Origin: Haladaptatus sp. DJG-WS-42
GTDB lineage: Archaea > Halobacteriota > Halobacteria > Halobacteriales > Halococcaceae
Reading direction: 5' to 3'
DNA: 64,000 nt
Assembly (NCBI RefSeq): GCF_037198285.1
Contig: NZ_CP147243.1
Span: 2,100,422 to 2,164,421 of the forward strand
In this document: positions 1,589 through 7,700 of the stretch, one piece after another
How positions within the stretch are numbered: position 1 is the first letter of the stretch
How the letters are laid out: each line of letters opens with the position of its first letter
The notes under the pieces: model-generated
The model's input: the letters and a program-made list of their open reading frames with translations, nothing else
The model's database searches: none
Told to the model about the DNA's origin: nothing
Program-made: the position numbers and the translations under genes

Positions 1589-1620
1589 GAGATATTGTGT
1601 GATATTATCAACATTATCTC
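1589..1620. promoter_or_regulatory. Nested palindrome, candidate operator
   Basis: The arms GAGATATTGT (1589-1598) and ACATTATCTC (1611-1620) pair at 9 of 10 positions. Inside lies a perfect small palindrome, TGATATTATCA (1600-1610). The element is AT-rich, unlike its surroundings, and ends 16 bp before a TATA box, where archaeal repressors or activators often bind. That it is an operator is inference. Confidence 0.6.
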
Positions 1621-1636
1621 GGGTAGCTGAACATTC

Positions 1637-1643
1637 TTATATA
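1637..1643 (+). promoter_or_regulatory. TATA box of the DUF3100 operon
   Basis: TTATATA, centred about 46 bp before the ATG at 1686. This predicts a transcript start near 1667 and a short leader of about 20 nt. Confidence 0.6.
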
Positions 1644-1685
1644 CTAGTGTGATAACCTCACAACTCACACGAGAAAAACTACCAC

Positions 1686-2537
1686 ATGTCATCTGATTCA
1701 TCACGGTGGGAACCAATCCGCACCGCTGGGCGCTGGTCTGAACACCTTCGGACTCATGGAACCGTTTTCGCAATCGTCGTCATCGCCGAACTCATCGGAA
1801 CACAGGTCTTCCCTCTCGGGCCGGGACAGGTCGTGTTACTCCCGATGCTGTTCGCCGTCATTCTCGGGATTTCGCTCAGCTATAGCGTGCTCGGGAAAGT
1901 TGTCGAACCGCTTCGCAACGTCGTTTCAAAAGAGGTGAGCACGATTGCTTCGCCGCTACTCATCATCGCACTCATGCCGCTTGGTGTGAAATACGGCTCG
2001 CTCGTCGCGCCGTCTTTCTACAGTCTCGTCGAAGCAGGCCCAGCGTTCGTTCTCCAAGAGTTTGGCAACCTCGCCACGATTTTCCTCGCCCTCCCGCTTG
2101 CGCTCGCACTCGGCCTCAAACGCGAAGCCATTGGCGGTGCAGTGAGCATCGCGCGCGAACCGACGCTCGGCGTCATCACCGACAAGTACGGCATCGACTC
2201 GCCGGAAGGCCGCGGCGTCCTTGGCACCTACATGACCGGGACCGTCCTCGGAACCGTTTTCTTCGGCATCCTCGGCGGGTTCGCCCCCGCGACTGGCCTG
2301 CACCCACTCTCACTATCGATGGCCTGTGGGATGGGGTCTGCGAGCATGATGACGGCGTGTTCGTCGTCGCTCGCAAACGTCGTCACGACCGTCCCGCAAG
2401 AAGAAATTCTCGCCTTCGCAAGCACGAGCAACCTGCTGACCGGCATCACGGGCCTCTACATGGTGCTGTTCGTCGGCCTGCCGCTCATCACCAGACTCTA
2501 CGCGAAACTCGCTCCGATGTTCGGAGGTGAGAACTGA
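1686..2537 (+). CDS. DUF3100-family membrane protein, probable transporter component
   Basis: A 283-residue multi-pass membrane protein with about eight hydrophobic segments. Its Gly/Ser-rich stretch LSMACGMGSASMMTACSSS (about 212-230) and overall pattern resemble DUF3100 proteins, which in bacteria sit beside amidohydrolase genes. The substrate is unknown. Its stop codon overlaps the start of the next membrane gene by one base (TGATG), and an M20 amidohydrolase follows directly. An uptake system for an amide- or peptide-like substrate that is then cleaved in the cytoplasm is therefore a reasonable inference. ATG start with a TATA box and dyad upstream. Confidence 0.75.
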   Translation: MSSDSSRWEPIRTAGRWSEHLRTHGTVFAIVVIAELIGTQVFPLGPGQVVLLPMLFAVILGISLSYSVLGKVVEPLRNVVSKEVSTIASPLLIIALMPLGVKYGSLVAPSFYSLVEAGPAFVLQEFGNLATIFLALPLALALGLKREAIGGAVSIAREPTLGVITDKYGIDSPEGRGVLGTYMTGTVLGTVFFGILGGFAPATGLHPLSLSMACGMGSASMMTACSSSLANVVTTVPQEEILAFASTSNLLTGITGLYMVLFVGLPLITRLYAKLAPMFGGEN

Positions 2538-2995
2538 TGGAAACCCCAGAGTTCACCGCAGAATCGCTGAAAATGTTGCTCGTCATTGGCTTCCTCACGC
2601 TCACCGCGAACACCATCGCCACGGACACGGGAGCGCTCGCGGCACTGCCCGGAATGGCTATAATCATCGCCATCGGCCTCGCCGCGCTGTTGCTCGGGCG
2701 ACTCCTTCCGCTTGACCTCCCGGCGTTCGCCTACGCCATGATTATCTCGTTCCTGCTGGCGATTCCGTTCTCGCCGGTGCAGGGCGTGTTCCTCGAATAC
2801 GTCGAGCGCATTGGCTTCCTCGCCACGACGACGCCGATTCTCGCCTACGCCGGCCTCTCGATTGGCCTGCAAACCGGGCGCATGAAGGAAGTGAGTTGGA
2901 AGCTCGTCATCGTCGCCGTGTTCGTCTTCTTCGGGACGTTCTTCGGGTCCGCGATGATTGCAGAGGTCATCCTGAAGGCACAGGGGATCATCTGA
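2537..2995 (+). CDS. Small multi-pass membrane protein, partner of the DUF3100 protein
   Basis: A 152-residue, almost entirely hydrophobic protein with about five membrane segments. I do not recognise a named family with certainty. It starts inside the stop codon of the DUF3100 gene and ends two bases before the amidohydrolase GTG start, so the three genes are almost surely co-translated. Its repeated GL/AG-rich helices and the tight coupling suggest the second half of a two-part permease (inference). Confidence 0.7.
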   Translation: METPEFTAESLKMLLVIGFLTLTANTIATDTGALAALPGMAIIIAIGLAALLLGRLLPLDLPAFAYAMIISFLLAIPFSPVQGVFLEYVERIGFLATTTPILAYAGLSIGLQTGRMKEVSWKLVIVAVFVFFGTFFGSAMIAEVILKAQGII

Positions 2996-2996
2996 C

Positions 2997-4319
2997 GTGA
3001 CCGACGCCCTCAAACAACGCGTCTGTGATGCCATCGACGACCACCGCGAGGAGATTATTGCCCTCGCCAAGTCGATTCAATCGGAGCCGGAACTCGGCTT
3101 CAAAGAGGTCGAAACCACGAAAAAAGTTGCCGCGGTGTTCGAGTCGCTGGACCTCGATGTGGAGACGGAAATTGCGATTACCGGTACTCGCGCCCGCGCT
3201 GGTTCTGGTGCGTTCACCGCAGCGGTGTTTGGCGAACTCGACGCACTCGTCAATCCCGAACATCCGCTTGCAGACGGAGAAACCGGCGCGTGTCACGCCT
3301 GCGGCCACCACGCGCAAGTGGCGAATCTGGTCGGGACGGCATTCGGCCTCGTCGCAAGCGACGTCGTAGACGAGTTAGCCGGCGAAGTCGAGTTCATTGG
3401 CGTCCCCGCAGAGGAGTACCTTGACCTTGGCTATCGCCGCGAACTGGTTGAGTCCGGCGAAATCGAGTTCTTCGGCGGGAAACAGGAACTCATCCGTCGG
3501 GGCTATCTCGACGACATCGACATGGCGATGATGATGCACGCAGGCAGCGACGAACCCGAGCGCGTCATCACGAGCAACTTCTCGACAAACGGCTTTGTGG
3601 GTAAATTCGTCACCTACACCGGGAAAGAGGCGCACGCGGGGGCCGCCCCCGAAGAGGGAATCAACGCGCTCAACGCCGCGATGATTGGCATGAACGCCGT
3701 CCACGCCCAGCGCGAGGTGTTCAAAGACGACGACGCCGTGCGCGTCCACCCGATTATCACGAACGGTGGCGACGGCGTGAACGTCGTCCCGAGCGACGTA
3801 CGCATGGAATCCTACGTCCGAGCGAAGACGGTCGAGGCGGTCACGGAAGCCAACGAGACGGTCAACCGGGCGCTCACCTCGGGGGCGCTCGCGGTTGGTG
3901 GCGACATCGAAATCAACGACTTCCCCGGCTACATGCCGCTTCGAACCGACCAGACCATTGTTTCCGCGTACGACGAAAACGCCCGCAAACTGGTGGGCGA
4001 AGACGTAATCACGCCGGGTCGTCCGCACATCACTGGCTCTACGGACATGGGCGATGTGACCCAGATTCTTCCGGGTATCCACCCGTGGACGGGCGGCTTC
4101 GAAGGGAGCGTCCACTCCCGCGAGTTCGGGGTTGTAGACGAGGAGATGGCGTACATTCTCCCAGCGAAAATCACCGCGTGCACGCTCGTTGACCTGTTGA
4201 CCGACGAATCTGCGATGGAAACGCTCCGGGCTGCAAAGGCTGAAAAACTCTCATCCGACGAGTATCTCTCCATGGTCCGGTCGATTCGAGCGGACGTTGT
4301 CGAATCGTACCGCGACTAA
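2997..4319 (+). CDS. M20-family amidohydrolase, AbgB-like
   Basis: A 440-residue zinc-dependent amidohydrolase of the aminoacylase/carboxypeptidase group. Visible metal and catalytic motifs are HACGHH (100-105), VPAEEY, MMMHAG, KEAHAGAAPEEGINALNA (dimerisation or lid domain) and GSTDMGDV near the C-terminus. The last form is closer to AbgB (p-aminobenzoyl-glutamate hydrolase subunit B) than to plain aminoacylases. The substrate is not shown by sequence. A GTG start (GTGACCGAC) lies one base after the stop of the preceding membrane gene. It is the third gene of the DUF3100 operon and probably cleaves what the membrane pair imports (inference). Confidence 0.88.
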   Translation: MTDALKQRVCDAIDDHREEIIALAKSIQSEPELGFKEVETTKKVAAVFESLDLDVETEIAITGTRARAGSGAFTAAVFGELDALVNPEHPLADGETGACHACGHHAQVANLVGTAFGLVASDVVDELAGEVEFIGVPAEEYLDLGYRRELVESGEIEFFGGKQELIRRGYLDDIDMAMMMHAGSDEPERVITSNFSTNGFVGKFVTYTGKEAHAGAAPEEGINALNAAMIGMNAVHAQREVFKDDDAVRVHPIITNGGDGVNVVPSDVRMESYVRAKTVEAVTEANETVNRALTSGALAVGGDIEINDFPGYMPLRTDQTIVSAYDENARKLVGEDVITPGRPHITGSTDMGDVTQILPGIHPWTGGFEGSVHSREFGVVDEEMAYILPAKITACTLVDLLTDESAMETLRAAKAEKLSSDEYLSMVRSIRADVVESYRD

Positions 4320-4427: not shown

Positions 4428-4697
4428 ATGACTCGCGGCAACCGCGTCGAGGAACTCGAAACGCGCGTAAAAGAACTTCAAGCCTCAGTTTCTGGCCTGA
4501 CTGACGAACTCATCGAGACGAAAGAGCGCGTCAAGGCGCTTGAAGAAGAGGTCCAACCGGAAGACCTCCTCGACCGGAAACTCACCCGGAAAACCGACGC
4601 GGAAGAATCCTCCGAAGCCACTAAAGGGCAGGAGAGCGAGGATGCAGACAGCACTGACGAGGAATCGACGCAGACGGACGACATTATCGTCGCATAA
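4428..4697 (+). CDS. Small acidic coiled-coil protein upstream of smc
   Basis: An 89-residue protein. Residues 5-45 form a heptad-like coiled coil (VEELETRVKELQASVSGLTD), and the rest is an acidic, Ser/Thr/Glu-rich low-complexity tail. It resembles small haloarchaeal coiled-coil proteins placed just before smc (DUF7518-like, from memory). A TATA-like GTTTATGGG lies about 28 bp before the ATG, so the transcript is probably leaderless. smc starts 74 bp downstream. The function is unknown; a role as an SMC accessory or folding partner is only suggested by context. Confidence 0.75.
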   Translation: MTRGNRVEELETRVKELQASVSGLTDELIETKERVKALEEEVQPEDLLDRKLTRKTDAEESSEATKGQESEDADSTDEESTQTDDIIVA

Positions 4698-4771: not shown

Positions 4772-7700
4772 ATGCATATCAAAGAAATCGTCCTTGACAA
4801 CTTCAAAAGCTTCGGGCGCAAAACGCGCATTCCGTTCTACGAGGACTTCACCACGGTCTCTGGCCCGAACGGGTCGGGGAAGTCGAACATCATCGACAGC
4901 GTGCTGTTCGCCCTCGGGCTTGCTCGAACGCGCGGCATTCGCGCGGAAAAACTGACTGACCTTATCTACAATCCCGGCAACGACGGCGACGCCCGCGGTG
5001 ACGAAACCCGCGAAGCCAGCGTCGAAGTCGTCCTCGATAATTCTGAGCGGACGCTCACGCGTCAACAGGTCGTGAGCGCCGCTGGCACCGAGAACATCGG
5101 GGAGGTAGACGATATCTCGATTCGCCGCCGGGTAAAGGAAACGCCCGAGAACTACTATTCGTACTACTATCTAAACGGCCGTTCGGTGAACCTTTCTGAT
5201 ATTCAGGGCCTGCTCGCACAGGCGGGCATCACGCCTGAAGGCTACAACGTCGTGATGCAGGGCGACGTGACTGGCATCATCCAGATGACGCCCTATGAAC
5301 GACGGGGAATTATCGACGAAATCGCCGGTGTCGCCGAGTTCGACGCGAAAAAAGACGCTGCCTTCGAGGAACTCGAAGTCGTCAAAGATCGCATCGCCGA
5401 AGCCGAACTCCGCATCGAGGAGAAACAAGCCCGCCTCGACCAACTCAAAGACGAACGCGAGACGGCGCTCGAATACAAGGGCTACCGCGAAGAGAAACAG
5501 GAGTACGAAGGCTACCTGAAAGCCGCGGAACTCGAAGACAAACGTGCCGACTTAGCGAAAACTGAAAAACAAATCGAGCGCCACGAAACCAAACTCGAAT
5601 CGCTCCAGTCTGACTTAGACGAAAAGCAAGGTCGCGTGCTTCGCTTAGAGGAGGAACTCGAAACCCTCAACGCCGAAATCGAGACGAAAGGCGAAGACGA
5701 GCAACTGCGCATCAAGCGCGAAATCGAGGAGGTAAAAGGTGAAATTGCCCGCCTCGAAGACGCTATCTCGGCCGCAGAAGAGCGGATTCAAGACGCAGAA
5801 CAGCGCCGCCGCGAGGCGTTCATCCAAATCGACCGCAAACAGGAGACGGTCGATGACGTCGAAAGCGAAATCCGTGAGACGAAAGTCGCAAAGGCCTCCG
5901 TCGTCGCGGAGATTCAACAGCACGAAGCCGACCTGGCAGACCTACAGGCAGAAATCGACGCGGTGGACACCGAGTACGACGAGGTGAAAACCGAACTGAC
6001 CGAAAGGCGCGAGGCGCTTGAGGAGGCGAAAGCCGCGAAAAACGCCACCCAACGCGAGCAAGACCGACTGCTCGACGAAGCGCGTCGTCGGTCGAACGAG
6101 CAGTCTGAAAAGCAGGCGGAAATCGAGACTGTCCGCGAGGAGATTCCGGCGCTCAAAGCCACCGTCCGCGACCTCGAGGACGAACTCGACAAGGCGAAGA
6201 AAAATCGCGCGAACATCTCGCAGGTCGTAGACGACCTCAAACAGCAAAAACGCGAGTTGCAGGACGAGTTAGACGAGGTCGAACAGCAACTTCGCGCCCG
6301 CCAACAGGAGTACGCGGAACTCAACGCACACGCCGACGAGTCAGGCGATTCGTCCTACGGGCGTGCGGTCACGACCATCCTGAACGGCAATCTTGACGGG
6401 GTTCACGGCACGGTTGGCCAACTCGGTGGCGTCTCAAACCAGTACGCGACGGCGTGTGAAACCGCGGCCGGTGGCCGTCTCGCGCACGTCGTCGTCGATG
6501 ACGACGGCATCGGCCAGCAGTGTATCGAGTACCTGAAACGCCGGAATGCGGGCCGCGCGACGTTCCTGCCAATCACCAAGATGCACAAACGGCGCTTGCC
6601 GAGCGTACCGAACCACGACGGTGTCGTGGACTTCGCTTACAACCTCGTTGACTTCGACAAACAGTATGCGGGCATCTTCTCGTACGTTCTCGGCGACACG
6701 CTCGTCGTCGATTCTATTGAGACTGCCCGCGACCTGATGGGCGATTTCCGTCTCGTCACGCTCTCTGGCGAACTCGTCGAAAAGAGCGGGGCGATGACCG
6801 GTGGCTCGTCCAGCGGCTCTCGCTACTCGTTCTCGAAGTCCGGCAAGGGCCAACTCGAACGCGTCGCCGAGAAAATCGCCTCGCTCGAAGACGAACGTCG
6901 CGCGTTGAACGAAGAGATTCGCGGCGTCGAAGAGCGCCTTGACGACGCCCGCGACCGCAAGACGGACGCGACAGACCAAGTCCGTGACATCGAAGCCGAC
7001 CGAGAGCGCGTCCAAGGCGAACTCGATAGCACCGACGAGCGCATCGAAGCGCTCGAAGCGCGCATCGAGGAAATCGCGGACGAGCGCGAGGACGTAAACG
7101 AGGAGATGCAGGCGCTCGAAGCCGACCTCACGGCCCACGACGAGCGCATCGCGGAGATTGAGTCGGCCATCGCGGAGTTGGAGTCAGAACTCGCAGACTC
7201 GAAGATTCCACAACTCACGAACGAGATGGACGAGATTCGCGCGAGCATCGAGGAGTACGAGGCCCAACAGGACAAGTTCGATGCGCGGCTCAACGAACTC
7301 GGTTTGGAGAAACAGTACGCAGAGGAGTCAATCGAAGACCTCCACAGCGAAATCGAGTCCGCCCAGAACAAGAAGGCAGACCAGCAAGAACGCATCGCAG
7401 ACCTCGAAGGCAAAATCGAAGACCAGCAAGTCGTTCTCGAAGACAAAGAAAGTCAGGTCGAAGATTTAGAGGACGAGTTGGCAGACCTCAAAGCAGAGCG
7501 CGAGGAGCTGAAAAGCGACCTCAAGTCGGCCAAGCAGACGCGCGATGCAGCCCGCGAGAAAGTGTCGGGGGTCGAATCCAAACTCGACAGCGCGAAGAGC
7601 GCCGCAGACCGCCTCGAATGGGAGGTTGACGAACTCGCTGCACAGGTCGGCGAGTACGACCCAGACGAGATTCCAGACCACGACGAGGTCAAACGAACCA

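Follow-up and report, generated by a model that had tools for sequence, protein, structure and literature searches.

In Escherichia coli, AbgT and AbgA/AbgB are responsible for the uptake and cleavage of p-aminobenzoyl-glutamate. The systems of the LrgA/LrgB type consist of two membrane proteins, one large and one small, which are encoded by adjacent genes and are known to be fused in plants. HmrA and the Xaa-Arg dipeptidase are M20D enzymes with solved structures; we know of no DUF3100 partner reported for either of them. LysO is an exporter of L-lysine and thialysine with two re-entrant loops, for which an elevator mechanism has been proposed (PMC8498466).

We have studied an operon of the salt-loving haloarchaeon Haladaptatus sp. 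DJG-WS-42 which can be compared with each of these systems. It is found in a stretch of 64,000 nt (the window) and it contains the genes of two membrane proteins, A and B, and of a hydrolase, C (Table 1). It is like the AbgT system in that a putative membrane carrier is genetically coupled to an M20D amidohydrolase, with an amide-type substrate proposed. However A and B are unrelated to AbgT by Pfam, C lies outside the AbgA and AbgB clades, and the operon holds one M20 gene, not two. A and B also resemble LrgA/LrgB, since here too a larger membrane protein is paired with a smaller one and their genes are adjacent; they differ by having no Pfam match with them and by the gene order, from large to small. 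LysO consists of a single chain with some 300 amino acids, whereas A and B are two proteins. Finally, C matches HmrA and the Xaa-Arg dipeptidase over its full length, with conserved metal ligands, but its clade has an insert after PAEE (residues 141–162 approximately) which is absent from AbgB, AbgA and HmrA.

Operon layout and the hydrolase C

Table 1. Features of the operon, with positions in the window
Feature	Position	Strand	Remarks
A, DUF3100 multi-pass membrane protein, 283 aa	1686–2537	+	Pfam PF11299; larger part of the proposed transporter
B, unnamed multi-pass membrane protein, 152 aa	2537–2995	+	Smaller part of the proposed transporter
C, M20D-family metallo-amidohydrolase, 440 aa	2997–4319	+	GTG start; TIGR01891 match
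Putative archaeal operon promoter, TATA-box-like, A/T-rich ttcttatatactag	1633–1646	+	Read by eye from the sequence

The coordinates agree with the original prediction of a three-gene operon with a TGATG overlap and one-base spacing. The TGA stop codon of A (2535–2537) shares one base with the ATG of B, and a single base (2996) separates the stop of B from the start of C. Position 1589, where that prediction began, is 5' of gene A; the stretch ttcttatatactag is about 40–50 bases 5' of the start of A. Upstream there is a divergent gene, whose product of 495 aa we take to be GatB-like, and the gene 3' of the operon presumably codes for an SMC-like product. A small coiled-coil-type protein, DUF7518, is found between the operon and smc, in positions 4428–4697 of the window. 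The whole genome has 2.78 Mb in one contig, with a single DUF3100 gene. DUF3100 is present in the laboratory species Haloferax volcanii as well.

C matches the Pfam families Peptidase_M20 (E 1.7e-10) and M20_dimer (E 3.4e-8), as well as the TIGR01891 amidohydrolase model, with 181.4 bits for a cut-off of 153.75. Its best matches in the PDB, both of full length, are HmrA (E 1.6e-30) and the Xaa-Arg dipeptidase (E 2.9e-28). The motifs HACGHH and GSTDMGDV are found in residues 100–105 and 346–353. Residues H100, C102, H104, E139, E140, H181 and H373 are conserved across 58 members of its clade; five of them (C102, H104, E140, H181 and H373), which we take to be the metal ligands from the M20D structures, are in place and near-invariant in these sequences.

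C had been described as AbgB-like. The description is valid for its broad membership in M20D, but the identity of C with E. coli AbgB is 28% and they belong to different clades. In a FastTree tree of 116 M20 proteins C is found in a 59-row clade (support 99) with mostly DUF3100-adjacent members, whereas E. coli AbgB clusters with haloarchaeal paralogues which are not beside DUF3100 (support 100). Judged from this tree, C is not AbgB and has a clade of its own. A second set of DUF3100 partners lies near E. coli AbgA; it contains M20 proteins of enteric, alphaproteobacterial, bacillar and Peptoniphilus type. A third set is formed by ArgE/DapE-like M20 proteins at haloarchaeal loci. The tree clearly separates these partner lineages; its deep placements are uncertain, given the long branches. 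The absence of AbgT, which had also been noted, is found throughout the genome, where the best AbgT match is below threshold (23.5 bits, cut-off 27).

The membrane pair and its M20 partners

A matches Pfam DUF3100 (PF11299) in positions 1–234 of the 235 of the model, with E 3.4e-89 and 298.7 bits (cut-off 27). No Pfam or NCBIfam family is found over threshold for B. With the DUF3100 alignment we fetched from species-level genomes the 80 loci most similar to the query DUF3100; the set also took in nine haloarchaeal loci, the one in the window included, and plasmid loci. Genes were called by a profile search over all ORFs. In 101 of the 102 DUF3100 loci B is immediately 3' of A on the same strand; in the remaining one, from Variovorax, A and B are a single ORF. 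Fusions of A and B are additionally found in Klebsiella, Agrobacterium, a Comamonadaceae bacterium, Arthrobacter and Psychrobacter. An internal duplication between A and B was also considered and was rejected: their profiles have no similarity.

Some loci have further peculiarities. In E. coli, Salmonella and Klebsiella the pair or its fused form is plasmid-borne (L011, L012, L161). The three-gene operon of E. coli is found in plasmids in 8 of 5426 complete genomes, and in none of the chromosomes. A gene of about 428 aa with no Pfam match (E 1e-5) recurs directly upstream of A in L043, L051, L056, L058 and L059 (in positions 5474–6757 of the latter); the hosts are Desulfobacteraceae, Spirochaetaceae and Cetobacterium.

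The predicted linkage of the pair with M20 genes is borne out by these loci. B is next to A or fused with it throughout, and of the 80 best database loci 62 have an M20 gene directly beside the pair and on its strand, while 4.2 are expected if the block is placed at random in these loci. This adjacency spans haloarchaea, Bacillota, Fusobacteriota, Spirochaetota and Pseudomonadota. The M20 gene is upstream in 29 loci and downstream in 33, which indicates that the arrangement arose more than once. Among the other 18 loci, six have a same-strand M20 gene within 4 kb and four have one adjoining the block on the opposite strand. In the last eight, the sequence of L049 and L090 extends only a little beyond the block on one side, and in L034 there is an M20 gene 1.9 kb away on the opposite strand. 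At least three divergent M20 lineages fill the M20 slot, and a Sulfitobacter locus has (once) an aspartoacylase-family gene in it. The amide-type metabolite of the original prediction is strengthened by these lineages, since different amidohydrolases occupy one slot.

C is also found without the pair. Close orthologues (at least 67% identity) are present in 16 of 194 haloarchaeal genomes, and 10 of these 16 lack DUF3100. In three Haloferax-type genomes (L145, L146 and L147; genus g23, whose M20 proteins cluster in the tree with those of Haloferax) C is placed in the same gatB–smc site and A and B are absent, with no detectable remnants of either gene. Thus the presence of A and B is not strictly required for C. 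The orthologue of C in one genome is immediately preceded by a sodium:dicarboxylate symporter gene, which was read as two ORFs.

Structural comparison and metabolic context

Both A and B are purely membrane-embedded, with no soluble domain. The AlphaFold2 model of A (mean pLDDT 90) is helical, with broken helices in residues 147–168 and 207–232 approximately; the predicted model of B also has a pLDDT of 90. A Foldseek search of the separate parts against solved structures gave no fold match, the best E value of A being 0.42, with NhaA, and that of B 1.4; their sequence profiles gave only noise against the PDB. AbgT (PF03806) has no Pfam match in A or B at E 1, and LrgA/LrgB are not found in them among 24736 Pfam families. 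As haloarchaeal comparators we looked for LrgB and DUF819, and no members were found there.

B has a weak similarity with LysO (PF03956) over about 50 residues, one helix pair in positions 28–80 approximately of the Pfam model. It is found in 28 of 71 B homologues at E values up to 0.1 (best E 1.5e-5); the best among the homologues listed has 22.9 bits, below the cut-off of 23.8, and B of the window has no match with PF03956. A comparison of the profiles of B and LysO lands on the same stretch (P 0.001). For A there is no convincing match with LysO. This weak likeness supports a carrier role of the pair, yet it also feeds the alternative of export. As neither half matches a solved fold, the term transporter is based on the membrane topology, on the context and on the weak LysO similarity.

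The genes that accompany A and B are found repeatedly: hydroxyisobutyrate-dehydrogenase-like in 12 loci, aldehyde dehydrogenase in 11 and SHMT-like in 5. Other neighbours are a D-threonine-aldolase/D-serine-dehydratase-like enzyme with Rid and a nitrilase-family enzyme, L-serine ammonia-lyase, L-threonine 3-dehydrogenase with glycine C-acetyltransferase, D-amino acid dehydrogenase with alanine racemase, and threonine/serine dehydratase with Rid. The recurrent neighbours are enzymes of Ser/Thr-type and D-amino-acid breakdown. Pantothenate was also considered as a substrate, as pantoate would fit the hydroxyisobutyrate-dehydrogenase and aldehyde-dehydrogenase neighbours; it was dropped because the SHMT, D-threonine-aldolase, serine-lyase and threonine-dehydrogenase neighbours were left unexplained. 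A literature search on this substrate gave nothing useful.

At some haloarchaeal loci DUF1611 and MR_MLE enzymes are beside DUF3100; we take them to be of the DgcN and DgcA family types respectively. The DUF1611 genes are in L157 (7301–9450), L155 (7404–8489) and L033 (4536–6892), and MR_MLE genes are found in two of these three loci. The DgcN-DgcA route converts D-Glu into L-Glu (PMC10845958; PMC12363236). The haloarchaeal loci with these genes and DUF3100 may possibly represent a D-amino-acid route with its own transporter.

Proposed function and alternatives

The presence of the same grouping in distant bacteria suggests an unrecognised transporter for modified amino acids. We somewhat favour the interpretation that A and B are a two-part secondary carrier which imports a modified amino acid, and that C cuts its amide inside the cell. 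A and B would be two parts of one secondary-active carrier, split in this species and fused in some bacteria. The substrate would be an amide-linked amino acid, either an N-acyl-amino acid or a dipeptide-like conjugate; in some lineages the pair may import a D- or beta-hydroxy amino acid. C, a presumed cytosolic zinc amidohydrolase, would cleave the amide bond and release the amino acid, which other enzymes would then degrade. The two-part permease that had been predicted gains strength from the natural fusions of A and B; transport, its inward direction and the class of the substrate are all three what we infer.

Several findings count against this interpretation, among them the Haloferax-type genomes with C alone and the kinship of B: LysO, which B weakly resembles, is an exporter, and it is the only distant kinship of B that we could detect. 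The pair might accordingly be a LysO-like exporter of the amino acid freed by C, or of a toxic analogue, with the substrate of C entering by another way. With lysine dipeptides, mutants of LysO have a reduced fitness (PMC8498466), a setting which resembles the release of amino acids by M20 enzymes. Export would also agree with the Haloferax-type genomes, which retain C alone, and with loci that hold an amino-acid importer too: in Agrobacterium 1D1609 an amino-acid ABC importer is directly upstream of A and B, so that import by the pair would be partly redundant there. However the LysO similarity is short and under the Pfam cut-off, and exporting would waste a nutrient next to genes for Ser/Thr and D-amino-acid breakdown. 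We consider export unlikely.

It is rather improbable that the pair takes up a D- or beta-hydroxy amino acid in its free form and that the M20 enzyme acts at a later stage, by removing an acyl group acquired within the cell in the manner of the DgcN-DgcA route; the molecule taken up and the one cleaved would then be different. The haloarchaeal loci in which A and B are accompanied by DUF1611 (DgcN-like), MR_MLE (DgcA-like) and an ArgE/DapE-type M20 would fit this scheme, as would the D-amino-acid genes at further loci, but most loci, the window included, have neither acetyltransferase nor racemase next to A, B and M20. That A and B are a membrane enzyme, a sensor or an assembly factor of amino-acid metabolism, and no transporter, is very doubtful: it would agree with the lack of a transporter fold match in the PDB and of any described function or publication for DUF3100 in the open literature searched, but not with two proteins embedded wholly in the membrane, with weak LysO and 2HCT matches and with a fused size of about 430–460 aa, typical of secondary carriers.

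Returning to the import of a modified amino acid, we tentatively suggest, as a possibility, that DUF3100 and B form an undescribed transporter family of Archaea and Bacteria, with a distant kinship to LysO. It would be found in split and fused forms, serve for modified (N-acyl, D-/beta-hydroxy) amino acids and work with interchangeable amidohydrolases. A widespread pair, in which B has no family name, would thus gain a concrete and testable function in the cleavage of amides and the breakdown of amino acids, in Archaea as well as in Bacteria. Structural work on what may be a new carrier fold could use both the split and the fused proteins.
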